64,000 nt of DNA from Verrucomicrobiia bacterium (lineage in GTDB: Bacteria > Verrucomicrobiota > Verrucomicrobiia > Opitutales > Cerasicoccaceae). Position numbers and translations under genes: made by a program. The notes below the pieces were generated by a model, which was not told the origin of the DNA, ran no database searches, and saw nothing but the letters and a program-made list of their open reading frames with translations. The DNA is taken from positions 313,136 through 377,135 of the forward strand of contig JAUIHT010000002.1 of assembly GCA_030432235.1 (NCBI GenBank). Reading direction: 5' to 3'. Shown piece after piece: positions 30,809 through 46,971 of the stretch (the first letter of the stretch is position 1; every line of letters starts with the position of its first letter).

Positions 30809-33800
30809 CTACTCCACGGTGACCTTGAACTCGGCGGAGTTGGCGCGGATTTCGGGGACGTACATGGCGTGGCCGAGGACGGGGAGCGCGGAGAAGGTGC
30901 CGGGGGTCTCGGCGCGGAGGGTGTAGCGCAGCTCCCAGTAGCCCTCGGGAAGCTTGTCCACGAAGGAGGCGATCTTGCGGTCGCGCAGCTCCTGGTAAAC
31001 CCAGCGTTGGCGGCCCACGTAGCGATCCTTGGCGTCCTCGGCGGGCAGGGCGATGTTGCCATCGGCGTCGTGCAGCACGCGCACCTCCTTGGCATAGAGC
31101 GATGCGCCGGATTGCAGCTCGGTGGCCTCGAAGCCGGCGGCCTTCAGGTCCTCGAAGACGAGGTACTCCAGGTTGTTTTTGGCCTGCACGACGAGCACGA
31201 CCTCCACGCGGTCGCCGGACTGCACCTCGGCACCGGATTGAATCTGCGTCTTCTCCTCGGCGTAACCGTCGAGCAGCGTGGGCACCGGACGGATGCGGTA
31301 GAAGTCCCGCTGGACGAAGACGACGTTCCCGGCGGGCGTGATGGGGTCCTCCAGAGTGAAGAAGTTCGCCCGGGCGGAGAAGTACAACGGAGCCGTTCCG
31401 CTTTGCCGCGCAAAGGTAATCGTGTTCGCGCCTTCGTTAAGTTTGCTGACGTCCACGGTAAACCGGCTCGGGGCCAGCGGACCGTGCCCGGCGGGGACGC
31501 TCTCGGTGGCGACCGTTTCTCCATTTAACGCGATGGTGTAATCAATGGCGGCATCGAGCTCGCCGGACTGCTTGAGGAAGTCGTTCAACGCAAGGATGGT
31601 GATGGCGGTGTCGCGGGTGTTGCTCCATTGCGCGCCGCGGCGATTCTGCACCAGCCAGTTGACCGCTTTGTCTGACAAAGCTTTGTCGCCGTGCGCGGCG
31701 AGCAGGGCCTTGACCGCGAAGGCCGTGGCCTCCACGCCGCCGTCGGACCAACGATAGTAAATGCCGTCGTTACCCCAGTGCGCGGTGGCCAGCTCGGCGG
31801 TGTTGCGGGGGTTGCCCGGAGCGATGATGCTGCCCTGCGGCGCGTCGTCCACGATGACGCCGTTCTGCAAATTGCGCGCCAGCGTGGCGGCCTCCTCCTC
31901 AAAGCCGAGGTTGACCGCCGCGAGTGTCAGCAGGGCGCGGGTGTAGGCGTTGAGCTGCTCCTTGCTCTTCCACAGCTCGGCGAAAGCCTTGGCCTCGAAG
32001 CGCGTCGGCGCGGGGTTGTCGTTGCCTTCGAAGCGGCTGGCCAGCGCATGCAGCATCCAGGCGGCGAGGTCGGGCTGGTTCTCGGTCTCGACCAAACGCT
32101 TGTCCAGGAACTCACGCCCGCGATCGAGCACGCCGTTGCGCACGGTGACGCCGCTTTGCTCGCAGAGCGTGAGACCCCACACGACGTAGGCCGACATGAA
32201 CGCATCGGAGTCGCCGCCCTTCCACCAGCCCCAGCCACCGTCGCCGTGCTGGAAGTCGTAGAGGCGCGCGAGGCCGTCGCCGACCATCTTTTTGAGATCG
32301 TAAAGATTATCTCCCCCGTCACCGGCCTGACGTCCCTCTTTCCCTCCGAAGGCACGCTCGACCACATCCTCCTCACTCAGGCCGAGGTCGGTCAAAGTCT
32401 TGGAGACAACGACGGCGGGCAGGAAGCGGCTCATGGTCTGCTCCACACAACCGTAGGGATACCCCGCCAGGTACGGCAGAGCATCCAGCATGGTGGCGGC
32501 AAGGCTGGGCGTGGCATAGATTTCAAAGCTCGCGCCCTCGGGCCGGAACGCAGGCATATCGAAGGGAACGGTGAGCGTGCCCGTGGTCATCTTGCCCGAC
32601 TGCGCCAGGAACTTGTCGATACCGTGTTCGAAGACCGGCAGCGGTTTCTCCATCGCATCGGCGTACTGCGTACCCTTCGCGGTCAGCGTCAGCTTGGGCT
32701 CACCGGGGTTGACCGCGCGCGCGGTGAAGTTGGCGCGTGACGATCCGTTAGCGGGCACGGTGAGACTTTGCGTCGCAGAGCCAAGCTCCAGCGCCTCACC
32801 GTCTTGCGCGAGGGAGACTTCCACCTGCATGTCGGTGTCGGTGTTGTTGTTGATGACACCGGAGAGGGTCACCTCGTCGCCGGTGACGAGGAAGCGCGGC
32901 ATCTGCAAACGCGCAATGAGCGGGAGCTTGGTTTTCATTTGCGCCGATGCCTGCCCCACTTTGCCGGGCAAAGCCAGGGCGCGCGCCTCGGCCTGCCAGG
33001 TGGTGAGGCTGTCGGGGAAAGTAACGTCTACGGTGGCGGTGCCATCGGGCCCGGTCATGACATTGGGCTGCCAGAAAACCGTCGCCCGGAAGTCGCTACG
33101 CACGACCACGGCGGGCTCCTCGCCCGCGACGGCGGCACCGGCGAAGTCCATTGCCAGCTCCGCGCCTGCGACCAGCTTGCCGGCTACAATCCCACGGCTT
33201 CGCGCCATCACTGGAGCCGCAGCCGGTGCCGGGGCATACGCAGCCGTCGACACGGACTCGGAAGCGGCATAGCCCAGATACATATCTTGATCACGCCCGT
33301 CCCGGTAAGCGGCACCCGCCTTCAACTCACGCTCATTGCGCGCGCCGGCGCGGCGGCGACTTTCCTCCATGGCCGGAGTCCAGAAGCTGCGGTCATACAC
33401 ACTGCTGTAGGTCTGGACGCTGTTGCCGCGCTTCTGGCCGTAGAAGAACTCACGCGGGTCGGGTGCGATTTGCGGCTGGATGTAGAGCACGGCCTCGTCG
33501 AAGAGCGACAGGGCCACCTCGGCAGACACAGGGTTGCCGTCGTGGTCGCGCGTCTCGACCGTAAGCGTACCTGTATCACGAGGCTGATACAGATCGGAAT
33601 TCGGCGTAATGGTAACGTCGAGGAACTGATCCACCGGCGGCACGACGGCCTCCTGGTTGTCCTGATAAAGCGTGTAATCCTGGAACATGGACGCGGCGAG
33701 GAAGACGTTGGGCACCCAGGCGTCGGTGACGTCGAGGTTGAGCAGCTTCACCGTGCCCTCCATGCGGACGATGCGGCTCTCCAGCAGGCCATCCGTCTCC

Positions 33801-36679
33801 ACCGTAAACCACACGGCGCGTCCCGCCGACGGCGCATTTATCATGACGGGCGCAGACTGCCCGGCGCGGAAGGAGTCGGCGTCGAAGATCAGTTTCAAAC
33901 CACCCTGGAAACCGACATCGAGCGTGGTTTCGTCGCAGGCCCAAACAGCGGTGTCGGCCTTAATCGGATAGCCATCTTCAGCCTGGCTGAACCAAGAGAA
34001 TTTGTAATAACCCGCCTTGGGCACCTCGAAGGAGAAAGTGGCCGCGCCGTCCTTGTCCGTCGTGATGGTCTGCGATGAGATTTCCTCCACGTCGTAGCCC
34101 TGGCGCATGAGACGCCACTCGGACGGCTCAAAGTGCCGGGAGAAGAGTCCGGTGGAGCGCTGGCGACGGCGGTACTCCTGCCCAGTGATTTCCTCACCCT
34201 TCGGCCCGATCCAAATCTGCTGCCACTCCTCGCGCGTGACGATGAGACGACCCGTGGCGGGAACGGGGTCGCGGTTGGCGTTGAGGCTCTTGATGTCGAT
34301 GCGGGCCTCCTCGCCGGGGCGATAGAGCTGACGCTGGGGTTGCAGAAAAACAAAGTACGGCTGGCGCGTTACGCGGATGCTCGCGTTACCGATAATCTCG
34401 CGGCGCGACTCATCGACCACGCGAGCCTCGACGGTGTACTCCAGGTCCTGTCGGTTGCCCGCCGGCGTCTCAATGGTAAAGGTAGCGCGACCGGTGTCGT
34501 CCGTGGTGAGTGTTTCACGCTGCACTTCCTGACCGGGGCCATAGTAGCCGCGCCAGCGCGATTGCTGGTCGTAGTACCAGGCATAGGGCCGGATGGGCTG
34601 CCACCACATATAAAATTGTTTCTGGCGTACAACGACCTCCACCTGCGCGTTGGCCACGGCGCCGCCAAAGTAGTAGTCCGCCTGCACCGTGACCGGCACG
34701 CGGTCGCCGAGGCGGAAGGCGGTCTGCGGCTCGCCGTCGGGACCTTCAGTGGAAACGGTCACCTTGAACTCCGGCAGCTTGTATTCCTCCAGGCGGAAAA
34801 GCTCCTCACTGCCGATCCAGTTGTTACCATGACGGAACTCCACGCGGAACATACCCAGCGGCATGTCCTTGGTCAGGGGCAGGTCGCCCCAGGTGCTGCC
34901 ATAGTCGTTGAGGCTGGCCTCGCCCTTGGCCACCTCGCTGCCGCGTGGATCGACGATGCGCCACTTGAGTGTTTCCCCGGCGGGCACACTGTAGGCGGAG
35001 AGGCTCTGGCGAATGCGCGCGGAGAACTTCCAGTGTACCGTGTCCTCGGGGCGGTAGGCCGGGCGGTCGGTAAAGGCATAGACGCGCCACTGGACGTCCT
35101 CAGAGCGGTAGCGGTGCCAGTACTGCTGGAGCATCGCCGGGCCCTCTTCCGTTTCGGCAAAAAGCATCCACTGCCAGTAATCCTCGCTCGTGGGAAACGG
35201 CAACGCCGCCAGGCCGTCCTCGTCCGTCTCCCCGTTGGCGGACTGCCAGGTGCGCCGGTTGTTTTGCTCGCGGGTAAACCAGGCGCGCAGCTTCGCGCCC
35301 TCCAGCGGTTGACCGCTTTCGGCCTGGATGGCCCAGGCGTGCAGGTTATCGCGGCCGGTCTTGGTCACCAGCGCCGCGCGAGTGACGAGCAGCCAGCCGT
35401 AGGTGGATTCGCCTTCACCCGAAGCACGCACCACGTAAAGCCCCTTGGGTAACCCCTTTGGCAAACGCACCTCCTGATTAAACACCTCGTACTCCTTCGC
35501 AAGTTCCCCATGGTAACTCCACACTGGCTCCTTACCTGACAGATTAACTCGCTCCCACCAATTCGAACTCTCCTGGTCGGATTCCGAGCCCGGAAAAGCA
35601 ATTTCATCCATGCTGACGGAAAAAACCTCAGCGCGAAGTCCACTGATGTTGCGCGTACGCACCGTGAAGCTGAGAGGCACCTCGGGCAGGAAGTTGTTCT
35701 GCACGATGACGGCCAGTTCCTTGCCGGTGATTTGCTCGACCTGCCTCTTGGCCTCGCGCCAGACAGGCGACTCACCTTCGGAATACTGGTCAAGGATTTG
35801 CCGGTAGTACTTGAGCGCCTCCTCGAAATCGGGCTTGGTAATCCAGTTGCCGTTTTCGTCGTAATGGGAGGCACCCTGCTGGGCCTCTACCGTAGCAAGA
35901 GCGAAGAGCCCGATATCGTAGTATTCAGTGTCCTTGCCCTGGGCGACAACCGTCTGCAGCAGTTCAATGCGACGCAGTTGCTGATAACCGTTGCCCTGGT
36001 TGCTGAGCGCATTGGCCAAGGCAAAGTTAAAGCGGGCCTTTCCACCGGGCGTTTGCGCCAAACGGATAGCGTTTTCAAGATAACCAACGGGAACCTGCGC
36101 CTGTCGCCAGCCGGAGTAATAATTGACGCGCCGCTGCCCCGGTAAGCCATTGGGCCAGTCGACGAGCTGTGTCATTATTGCCAGGTAACGCTCGCGGGCG
36201 GTATCGAGGTCGGTCGAGGCGGCCCACCAATCGAGGGCTTTTTGGAAATGCGGCCAGGCTTTCCCCCAGTTGCGCAAATCGTCATTGGCCCACCAGGAAT
36301 CACCCAGTGAGCGTTGAATCTGCGCCCACAACTCCGGAGGACGCGCGGTGGTTTCCTCTTTCTTCAGCTTGGCTGCCAGCTCGATGAGGATGTCACGCTG
36401 ATCCTGAATAAGCTTCTGGTCGCTCTGGTTGGTAGAGGCGAGGTTGCGCAGGGTGACGTCGGCTTGGATGTAGGCCAGCCGATCACGCTCATACGGGGTT
36501 AATTGCTCGTCCGGGCTGAGACTCCGAATGCAGCCCAGAGCTTTTTCGTATGAGCCCTCCTGAGCGAGGGCCTCAGCCTGCTCAATCTGAGCGTCAAAGC
36601 TGGATTTTTCGGCGTCAGTTTCTGCCGAAGCCAGCAGGGAGGATAAGAAAAGAAGAAGAACGGGGGCTATTTTCCACAT
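30809..36679 (-). CDS. Alpha-2-macroglobulin family protein with thioester
   Basis: This 1956-residue exported protein has signal peptide MWKIAPVLLLFLSSLLASAE. The first 330 residues are helical, with TPR-like spacing (EKALGCIRSLSPDEQLTPYE). The macroglobulin MG domains follow, including FTDRPAYRPEDTVHWKF and FLQPQRQLYRPGEEARIDIK. The thioester motif YPYGCVEQ has Cys1411, and the downstream alpha/alpha toroid has GDGGWGWWKGGDSDAFMSAY. Such proteins trap proteases or protect the envelope, often with PbpC, which is absent here. The C-terminus is complete. Length is within the family range (1500-2000). Confidence 0.94.
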   Translation of the reverse strand: MWKIAPVLLLFLSSLLASAETDAEKSSFDAQIEQAEALAQEGSYEKALGCIRSLSPDEQLTPYERDRLAYIQADVTLRNLASTNQSDQKLIQDQRDILIELAAKLKKEETTARPPELWAQIQRSLGDSWWANDDLRNWGKAWPHFQKALDWWAASTDLDTARERYLAIMTQLVDWPNGLPGQRRVNYYSGWRQAQVPVGYLENAIRLAQTPGGKARFNFALANALSNQGNGYQQLRRIELLQTVVAQGKDTEYYDIGLFALATVEAQQGASHYDENGNWITKPDFEEALKYYRQILDQYSEGESPVWREAKRQVEQITGKELAVIVQNNFLPEVPLSFTVRTRNISGLRAEVFSVSMDEIAFPGSESDQESSNWWERVNLSGKEPVWSYHGELAKEYEVFNQEVRLPKGLPKGLYVVRASGEGESTYGWLLVTRAALVTKTGRDNLHAWAIQAESGQPLEGAKLRAWFTREQNNRRTWQSANGETDEDGLAALPFPTSEDYWQWMLFAETEEGPAMLQQYWHRYRSEDVQWRVYAFTDRPAYRPEDTVHWKFSARIRQSLSAYSVPAGETLKWRIVDPRGSEVAKGEASLNDYGSTWGDLPLTKDMPLGMFRVEFRHGNNWIGSEELFRLEEYKLPEFKVTVSTEGPDGEPQTAFRLGDRVPVTVQADYYFGGAVANAQVEVVVRQKQFYMWWQPIRPYAWYYDQQSRWRGYYGPGQEVQRETLTTDDTGRATFTIETPAGNRQDLEYTVEARVVDESRREIIGNASIRVTRQPYFVFLQPQRQLYRPGEEARIDIKSLNANRDPVPATGRLIVTREEWQQIWIGPKGEEITGQEYRRRQRSTGLFSRHFEPSEWRLMRQGYDVEEISSQTITTDKDGAATFSFEVPKAGYYKFSWFSQAEDGYPIKADTAVWACDETTLDVGFQGGLKLIFDADSFRAGQSAPVMINAPSAGRAVWFTVETDGLLESRIVRMEGTVKLLNLDVTDAWVPNVFLAASMFQDYTLYQDNQEAVVPPVDQFLDVTITPNSDLYQPRDTGTLTVETRDHDGNPVSAEVALSLFDEAVLYIQPQIAPDPREFFYGQKRGNSVQTYSSVYDRSFWTPAMEESRRRAGARNERELKAGAAYRDGRDQDMYLGYAASESVSTAAYAPAPAAAPVMARSRGIVAGKLVAGAELAMDFAGAAVAGEEPAVVVRSDFRATVFWQPNVMTGPDGTATVDVTFPDSLTTWQAEARALALPGKVGQASAQMKTKLPLIARLQMPRFLVTGDEVTLSGVINNNTDTDMQVEVSLAQDGEALELGSATQSLTVPANGSSRANFTARAVNPGEPKLTLTAKGTQYADAMEKPLPVFEHGIDKFLAQSGKMTTGTLTVPFDMPAFRPEGASFEIYATPSLAATMLDALPYLAGYPYGCVEQTMSRFLPAVVVSKTLTDLGLSEEDVVERAFGGKEGRQAGDGGDNLYDLKKMVGDGLARLYDFQHGDGGWGWWKGGDSDAFMSAYVVWGLTLCEQSGVTVRNGVLDRGREFLDKRLVETENQPDLAAWMLHALASRFEGNDNPAPTRFEAKAFAELWKSKEQLNAYTRALLTLAAVNLGFEEEAATLARNLQNGVIVDDAPQGSIIAPGNPRNTAELATAHWGNDGIYYRWSDGGVEATAFAVKALLAAHGDKALSDKAVNWLVQNRRGAQWSNTRDTAITILALNDFLKQSGELDAAIDYTIALNGETVATESVPAGHGPLAPSRFTVDVSKLNEGANTITFARQSGTAPLYFSARANFFTLEDPITPAGNVVFVQRDFYRIRPVPTLLDGYAEEKTQIQSGAEVQSGDRVEVVLVVQAKNNLEYLVFEDLKAAGFEATELQSGASLYAKEVRVLHDADGNIALPAEDAKDRYVGRQRWVYQELRDRKIASFVDKLPEGYWELRYTLRAETPGTFSALPVLGHAMYVPEIRANSAEFKVTVE

Positions 36680-38247: not shown

Positions 38248-39159
38248 TCAACCGGCCGTCGCTCGGGCTTTACGGCGAAGGCGCACCCCATAATACGCCG
38301 CCACAATCAGGATGCCGTAGGCTGGGTTGACGTTGAAGGGTATCGCCGTCGGGGAAAGTGAGCTGATGGCGTCCTCGAAGGTCGGAGCATAACGCAAACC
38401 GTCGATGGACACAGCTACCCCGTCGCTGAGATTGACGCTGCGGATGCCCATGTTGGTCACATCGCTGTACAGGCTGGGGACATTATAAACGGCATCGGGC
38501 GTGCCGGAGGCCCCGGCATCGGGGTTCACCCAGAGCGAATAGCGGTCGTAGATGTTGCCGTTGGCCCCGGTTTTTTCCAGTTTGCCGACCAGCAGATACG
38601 TTTCCCCGGTGACCGCCTCGGTGCTGTAGGCGGCGTCGTTGTTGATCTGGCGTGTGCGCGCGAAGAAATCCAGGGGGCCATCACCGCTGCCTTCGTTGGC
38701 CTTGAGGCCCATGGAGGGCCCGCCGCTCGGCCCGATATTGCTGTACCAGATGCTGACGAAGTCGTTGTTGCCCAACGTGCCGGAGTCCACCCGCATGAGG
38801 AAGCTGGTGAAGATGGTGCCGTCGTAGGTGGTGTCGAAGGTCCGGGTCGCCATCCCGTCGTTGTTGCCGGTAATCTTCAGCGCCCGGCTGCCGCCGTCGA
38901 CCAGATCGCCGCCCACCACCTGATACTGGAGCGGATTGGAGGTCGTATCGACGATGGACTGACCACTCTGGCCCGTCCAAGCCCCGGCCCAGCCGGTACC
39001 GCCGTTGTTGCCCGCAATACTGCCCACCGAGTAGTCCTCAAAAGTGTCGACGGCAAAGGACAGCGCCTGCGCCTTGCCGGCAAGCGCGCACAGCAAAGCC
39101 GCCCAAGGCAAAACCGCCCTGAGACGAAGGGCACTTCGTCTCAAGCTACTAGGGGACAT
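38248..39159 (-). CDS. Exported beta-sandwich protein with CTERM-like tail
   Basis: The 303-residue protein has a signal peptide (residues about 12-33) and a lectin/LamG-like body starting FAVDTFEDYSVGSIAGNNGG, with TGWAGAWTGQSG. The C-terminus has a short motif PFNVNPAYG (residues 274-282), a hydrophobic stretch GILIVAAYYGV and the basic end RLRRKARATAG. That three-part layout matches exosortase-type sorting signals such as PEP-CTERM, but the motif is different. It precedes the HpsJ-like gene with a 1-bp gap. Confidence 0.8.
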   Translation of the reverse strand: MSPSSLRRSALRLRAVLPWAALLCALAGKAQALSFAVDTFEDYSVGSIAGNNGGTGWAGAWTGQSGQSIVDTTSNPLQYQVVGGDLVDGGSRALKITGNNDGMATRTFDTTYDGTIFTSFLMRVDSGTLGNNDFVSIWYSNIGPSGGPSMGLKANEGSGDGPLDFFARTRQINNDAAYSTEAVTGETYLLVGKLEKTGANGNIYDRYSLWVNPDAGASGTPDAVYNVPSLYSDVTNMGIRSVNLSDGVAVSIDGLRYAPTFEDAISSLSPTAIPFNVNPAYGILIVAAYYGVRLRRKARATAG

Positions 39160-45882: not shown

Positions 45883-46971
45883 TTATTCGGCCTTATAGCC
45901 CGTCACCCGCCATGCTTCCATATTACCTTCGGGATTGCGACCACTGCCAACAATCACACTTCCGTCATCACTCACCGCTCGAGCGACAAGCAACTTCCAA
46001 CCAGAAAGGTCAGTACCCGCCGCAATCAATACGTCCGTTAGGCGCCGCATCCCATTCTTGTCGTCCCATACGAAGGCTTGTTCGGAATCTCGCGAGTTTT
46101 CTTCTTCACGATAACCGACAACGATAGAGCCATCCGCATTTACTCCTAAGGCGGCACTCACGAACACTTTTCCGTTGATGTCCTCCAAATGGGCCATTCC
46201 ACTTCGTGAGGTCCAGCGAAACGCCTCACGAATAACATTTCGTTGAGGCGATACCGCAACCCCAACAACCACGGATCCGTCTGCATTTACAGCATGAGCT
46301 TCGGTGCCGCGTCCGGGCTTCAGAAAACCCAGTCCCTGCATTCCAGCATGTTTATTCCACCGGAAAGCCTCTTCACAAAAGGTAGAGTGCCCAAGGCCAA
46401 CAATAACGTTGCCGGTTGCACTCACACCATTGGCACGACTGTAGGTGACTCCACGCTTCAGGTCTCCCAAGCCAATCATTCCATCCTCCATAGTCCAACG
46501 GAAAGCCTCAAGGTGGTTTTTCTCAACCCAGCTATTTCCAACGATTACGTTTCCGTCAGCACTCACGTCGGATGCTTCACTGCGAAACATGCCAGGCGCA
46601 AGGTCCCCCAGGCCCAAAATTTCTCCACCAATAGTCCAACGAAAAGCTTCCACACCATTCGTCGAAGAGCCACTTCCGACAATAACTGTGCCATCCGCGT
46701 TTATGGCCGACGCATTTATTGTGTACCAGTTATCAGGCAACTCGCTGTGATTCATACCCACCATACCCTTGCCCTCGGTCCACAGGAAAACGTTATTGCT
46801 CGTTCCAGCAGAACTGTTGCCAACAACAACCGTACCGTTAGCACTTAAGTCAACGGCTGAACTTTCATATTTACCACCGGGCAAGTCTCCGAGTCCTTCA
46901 AAGGCCAGCTCCGCTTTGACTAAGGACACAGCCAAAACTGAGGCAACATAACAAAACGCTTGAATGCTCAT
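45883..46971 (-). CDS. HAF-repeat exported protein
   Basis: The 362-residue protein has a signal peptide (MSIQAFCYVASVLAVSLVKA) and about seven repeats of a GLGDLPGG...SANGTVVVGNSS...AFRWT type. Each has a variant of VSADGNVIVGNSW and EAFRWTMEDGMIGLGDL, typical of the HAF family. Such beta-propeller-like repeat proteins occur outside the cytoplasm in many Verrucomicrobia; the ligand is unknown. Codon use is somewhat AT-richer than the neighbours. No clear sorting motif is present at the C-terminus. Confidence 0.85.
   Translation of the reverse strand: MSIQAFCYVASVLAVSLVKAELAFEGLGDLPGGKYESSAVDLSANGTVVVGNSSAGTSNNVFLWTEGKGMVGMNHSELPDNWYTINASAINADGTVIVGSGSSTNGVEAFRWTIGGEILGLGDLAPGMFRSEASDVSADGNVIVGNSWVEKNHLEAFRWTMEDGMIGLGDLKRGVTYSRANGVSATGNVIVGLGHSTFCEEAFRWNKHAGMQGLGFLKPGRGTEAHAVNADGSVVVGVAVSPQRNVIREAFRWTSRSGMAHLEDINGKVFVSAALGVNADGSIVVGYREEENSRDSEQAFVWDDKNGMRRLTDVLIAAGTDLSGWKLLVARAVSDDGSVIVGSGRNPEGNMEAWRVTGYKAE

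Follow-up and report, generated by a model that had tools for sequence, protein, structure and literature searches.

The window analyzed here, a 64,000-nucleotide stretch of the genome of a Verrucomicrobiia bacterium, carries on its reverse strand an open reading frame (38248–39159) for an exported protein whose C-terminus has the layout of a sorting signal. To which sorting class does this tail belong, which enzyme would process it, and what could be the role of the HpsJ-like protein encoded by the next gene? With a probability of roughly 0.7, we propose that the protein (referred to as the cargo) is an exosortase substrate with an HpsJ partner of its own, processed by an unlinked, CrtA-like exosortase encoded on another contig, C37. 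The computed basis of this reading comprises tail anatomy, gene pairing, co-distribution, orthology and the clade membership of the exosortase. For the features discussed see Table 1.

Table 1. Features of the cargo–HpsJ pair and of the second locus on contig C37 (positions in the window unless locus L035 is given).
Feature	Position	Strand	Basis
Exported protein, predicted to be an exosortase substrate, with a C-terminal sorting tail of PF type	38248–39159	-	ORF; PFE_CTERM match; orthologues
Signal peptide, residues 1–32, cut after AQA	39064–39159	-	read by eye
Motif PFNVNPAYG, residues 274–282	38314–38340	-	translation; P, F, G invariant in aligned tails
Short hydrophobic stretch ILIVAAYYGV	38284–38313	-	translation
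Basic cluster RLRRKARA	38260–38283	-	translation
HpsJ_like_A-type inner-membrane protein, 256 aa	37476–38246	-	NCBIfam scores, hydropathy, structure model
PF-tail protein	L035 7680–8429	+	PFE_CTERM
C37 exosortase	L035 8426–9343	-	TIGR04178; between PF-tail gene and HpsJ
Second HpsJ	L035 9340–10236	-	HpsJ_like_A

The cargo comprises 303 residues and starts with ATG according to the ORF list and its translation. Its signal peptide is of the ordinary type, with a basic n-region, a hydrophobic core and AQA (by eye); hydropathy places the hydrophobic segment at residues 13–27. The C-terminal end reads TAIPFNVNPAYGILIVAAYYGVRLRRKARATAG. Sequence and hydropathy together give a signal peptide, a motif, a hydrophobic stretch and a basic C-terminus, the three-part layout of an exported, sorted protein that the first-pass annotation had described. 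All three tail elements that it listed are present, and the chain runs a few residues beyond RLRRKARA, where it had placed the end. Pro-Glu-Pro, the motif of PEP-CTERM tails, is absent from the tail, which reads PFN instead. A structure model of the cargo, folded alone, was of low confidence (pLDDT 34) with a helix at residues 279–302.

The motif had been taken for an unfamiliar, possibly new one. This had to be abandoned, as the motif is covered by the NCBIfam model PFE_CTERM (NF050011), to which tails of relatives score above the cut-off of 24 bits (L057, 33.3 bits; L061, 32.2 bits). The cargo itself matched at residues 272–298 with 19.2 bits (E = 0.0013) and, in a search of the genome, with 22.5 bits, both below the cut-off; two tails of relatives also score below it (L058, 15.9 bits; L064, 20.1 bits). 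No other NCBIfam model matched the cargo up to E = 10, a Pfam search gave no match and a PDB search with a cargo profile returned none. P, F and G are invariant in 11 of 11 aligned PF-type tails, which sit on five cargo families lacking detectable homology to each other. A hidden Markov model built from the nine tails of other genomes was run against 415 ORFs, i.e. those of the window and of the second locus; its top two matches were the tails of this genome (E = 1e-7 and 4e-4), with the following ORF at 0.04. A chance resemblance was rejected on this result. On the basis of its sequence we classify the tail as a borderline member of the PFE_CTERM class.

The next gene encodes the HpsJ-like protein, as had been noted before. 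It scores 71.8 bits with the HpsJ family NF038305 (cut-off 60) and 133.8 bits with HpsJ_like_A (NF050013), under the cut-off of 140. The stop codon of the cargo gene and the start codon of the downstream hpsJ read TGA-T-ATG, leaving a gap of 1 nt. Hydropathy predicts four membrane segments. AlphaFold2, given the window protein together with 46 relatives, produced a confident model (pLDDT 91.5), in which two long helices (residues 81–143 and 169–226) form a hairpin in addition to the membrane helices. The basic character of the C-terminus (10 Lys/Arg within 32 residues) points to an N-in/C-in topology, which would place the hairpin in the periplasm. A Foldseek search with this model gave no match at E ≤ 0.001, so that no solved fold was convincingly alike, and a PDB search with an HpsJ profile yielded merely weak, coiled-coil-like matches (E ≥ 0.18). 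To our knowledge, no role has been established for HpsJ.

No exosortase gene lies within the window. The genome (G000; 5.72 Mb, 42 contigs) contains seven exosortase-type genes, all above the cut-off of the general model TIGR04178, and the exact motif pattern of the cargo occurs once. Another protein with this type of motif was found by a genome search with PFE_CTERM (C37:1241309, 25.7 bits, above the cut-off; 22.8 bits as protein). It carries the motif IPFNPSPFLG, ends in IPFNPSPFLGLGLVGGFFAWRVRRAKK... and is encoded beside one of the seven exosortase genes, the cognate candidate. Both outcomes that the first-pass annotation had named as refuting its idea, no further bearer of the motif in the genome and no sortase-like gene, are thereby contradicted. 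A second HpsJ_like_A gene follows at C37:1242453 (142.8 bits in the genome search; 141.9 bits as protein, above the cut-off). PEP-CTERM proteins also occur near this locus. The best specific model for the C37 exosortase, cyanoexosortase A (TIGR03763), gives 48.6 bits, far under its cut-off of 150, and the model of the cyanoexosortase A-associated protein (TIGR04153) gives no match on it. Residues Cys176, Arg221 and His239, which we take to be catalytic, correspond to positions invariant in six exosortases.

The motif and a matching sortase were also sought among relatives. HpsJ_like_A was found in six of the 273 genomes of the order (three of 88 genera; 18 genes) and in four of 387 genomes of a phylum sample, all from the family of the window. 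At E ≤ 1e-6, a model built from the 11 tails detected PF-tails in these six genomes, and the 267 others gave no match. The 11 tails match by construction; seven further tails from outside the model, in four of the six genomes, are all C-terminal and of PF type, giving 18 PF-tail proteins in the carriers. A search of the family in which every candidate was scored recovered PF-tails in five of ten genomes, the HpsJ carriers. Fisher's test gives 1.8e-12 by genome and 9e-6 by genus, these values using a threshold picked after the hits were seen, ignoring kinship and referring to six carriers from three genera. At E ≤ 0.01 the model marked 16 genomes, ten of them without HpsJ_like_A. The extras in the eight loci inspected (L077–L083, L093) and in L098, an additional match in the genome of the window, were discarded as PEP-CTERM-like tails or matches off the PF end; L084–L086 lay outside this inspection. 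Exosortase-model matches are common (TIGR03763 at E ≤ 1e-8 in 48 of the 273 genomes, the 150-bit cut-off being reached in none), whereas PF-tails at E ≤ 1e-6 are restricted to genomes with HpsJ_like_A and an adjacent CrtA-like exosortase. Because of this co-distribution we name the CrtA-like enzyme as the likely exosortase partner of PF-tails.

Most hpsJ genes of the carriers are arranged as in the window. Ten of the 18 come immediately after a co-directional PF-tail gene, at gaps of 1–200 nt; six adjoin an exosortase, with exactly one such locus per genome, and two, both from G008, adjoin neither. Conversely, seven of the 18 PF-tail proteins are encoded away from any HpsJ match, and one more (L035) has the exosortase gene, not hpsJ, as its neighbor. 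Each carrier keeps two to four diverged HpsJ copies (18–32% identity to the window copy). In a tree with 25 of 49 cyanobacterial rows, the window copy forms one clade with those of L056, L058 and L065 (95/92), and L057, L059, L060 and L062 form another (100/100). Support is weak (83/29) for a grouping of the exosortase-side copies within the family to which the window belongs; one such copy from G008 falls elsewhere. With the tails removed, the cargo bodies fall into the same two families as the HpsJ clades, with no match between families; the cargo shares 46–48% identity with its orthologues in L056, L058 and L065. In these three loci the pair lies beside rnpA/yidD/yidC; in the window one gene lies between. 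Judged by sequence and gene order, the window pair is orthologous to the pairs of these three relatives, and the HpsJ paralogues are each seen to keep their own cargo family across species, as would be expected of a dedicated adaptor. A literature search, with subscription journals mostly outside its coverage, found nothing on PFE-CTERM or on HpsJ–cargo pairs.

Several other proteins drew our attention. One cargo family (L057, L059, L060, L062, L094, L095) weakly resembles thioester domains (Pfam TED on L057, 18.2 bits, cut-off 22) and might represent thioester adhesins sorted by an exosortase. A 495-residue, Asp-rich repeat protein of G008 (L061:4210–5697) has a PF-type tail and is paired with HpsJ. 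In the window, an exported protein presumably of the HAF-repeat type (45883–46971, minus strand) has no sorting tail; its homologues in G008 end in PF-type tails (L100, 40% identity; L092). A 1956-residue, alpha-2-macroglobulin-like protein (30809–36679, minus strand) contains a GCVEQ thioester-type motif (by eye).

To place the C37 enzyme we scanned contigs with the exosortases and obtained 67 loci, nearly all cyanobacterial. The others are three from Verrucomicrobiota (L111, L171, L175) and one each labelled Alphaproteobacteria (L174) and Gracilibacteria (L136); the CrtA-like genes of the latter two may reflect transfer or mislabelled bins. An HpsJ gene was present within the fetched DNA of 52 of the 67 loci, three of these from Verrucomicrobiota. 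We built a tree of 39 exosortases, with 22 of 64 cyanobacterial rows sampled and the CrtA rows taken from a search with an Opitutales query. In it, the exosortases encoded next to HpsJ join cyanoexosortase A (97/93), and 11 further enzymes, the six remaining exosortases of the genome among them, stand apart. The cyanoexosortase-A-like clade now extends to a few Verrucomicrobiota. The link of this clade to PF-tails is not universal, because among 26 genomes carrying a CrtA-like gene, of which 25 are cyanobacterial and one bears another label, just three had a PFE_CTERM match, adjoining the exosortase in one of them (L208). PF-tails as a general signal of cyanoexosortase A were rejected on this count. 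In none of eight cyanobacterial HpsJ neighborhoods (L208–L215) was a PF-tail gene directly beside hpsJ. Two exosortases are about 535 residues long (L067:4346–5965 and L209:3097–4692); the C-terminal part of the former resembles TIGR04153 (54.4 bits, cut-off 100), and the protein looks like a fusion with a TIGR04153-like domain.

Based on these results we propose the following course of events. The cargo would be exported via Sec and held in the inner membrane by its PF-type tail. The CrtA-related exosortase of C37 would then cut near the PF motif, and the cleaved body would be passed on to the cell surface. Sorting of the cargo by an exosortase is suggested by tail anatomy and co-distribution; for cleavage and surface transfer we rely on the known exosortase model, in which an exported protein stays anchored in the inner membrane by its tail until the exosortase cuts the tail off (see PMC12188702 and PMC3237569). 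HpsJ from the next gene would not leave the inner membrane, its helical hairpin reaching into the periplasm. We hypothesize that it most likely acts as a partner dedicated to its own cargo, handing it to the single shared exosortase.

The general form of this idea, in which HpsJ proteins are cargo-specific adaptors and each surface protein is brought by its own HpsJ to one Opitutales CrtA-like exosortase, is put forward tentatively. If true, both the tail and the pairing with an adaptor would decide on sorting. The main rival, a serious possibility, sees in HpsJ a subunit with a general function, belonging either to the exosortase machinery or to a linked polysaccharide pathway, and in its pairing with cargo just co-expression. 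Such a role would agree with the cyanobacterial arrangement, where HpsJ is found near the exosortase and not directly beside PF-tail genes, with the NCBIfam name of the HpsJ family (cyanoexosortase A-associated), and with the seven PF-tail proteins that have no HpsJ of their own. A general subunit, however, would need one copy, whereas the carriers keep several diverged ones, each with the same cargo family across species. This constancy makes the role of HpsJ a direct genetic question.

Some scores weigh against our reading: in the window, the tail and HpsJ each fall short of their curated cut-offs, and the C37 exosortase stays far below that of cyanoexosortase A. Concerning the processing enzyme, any of the six other exosortases of the genome, enzymes of the PEP-CTERM type, could act on the tail instead of the C37 enzyme. 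We regard this as unlikely. The number of exosortases and the PEP-CTERM proteins near the C37 locus speak for it; the restriction of PF-tails to genomes with HpsJ_like_A and the adjacent CrtA-like enzyme, at a time when exosortase matches are widespread in the order, and the position of the second PF-tail gene next to the C37 exosortase speak against it. Still less probable is a plain membrane anchor that undergoes no processing: the hydrophobic stretch and the basic end would fit it as well, but a generic anchor does not need invariant P, F and G in 11 tails on five unrelated-looking cargo families. Processing by the C37 exosortase is our preferred reading.

The proposed system combines features of several known ones. 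With PFE_CTERM it shares the PF motif, the hydrophobic stretch and the basic C-terminus, with relatives above the cut-off; it deviates in the third motif residue, which is Asn in the window and Asp (PFD) in the orthologues of genus g2. The exosortase clade, the HpsJ family and the adjacent HpsJ and exosortase genes correspond to cyanoexosortase A with HpsJ_like_A. In contrast to that system, the exosortase lies far under the specific cut-off and is not matched by TIGR04153, PFE_CTERM is rare among CrtA-bearing genomes, and HpsJ is multiplied and paired with cargo. Signal peptide, three-part tail and exosortase are common to the PEP-CTERM/EpsH system, which differs in its motif. For cyanoexosortase B of Nostoc punctiforme, PMC12188702 describes that deletion of the exosortase lowers the tail proteins in the exoproteome; there, unlike here, the enzyme is CrtB, the cargo is PEP-CTERM and the genes belong to an HPS locus. 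A parallel in gene order is GlyGly-CTERM/rhombosortase, with a rhomboid protease and another motif, where target and protease genes adjoin in most single-target genomes (PMC3237569). Rhombosortase pairs the protease with its target, whereas the system of the window pairs an accessory protein, not the protease, with most of its cargo.
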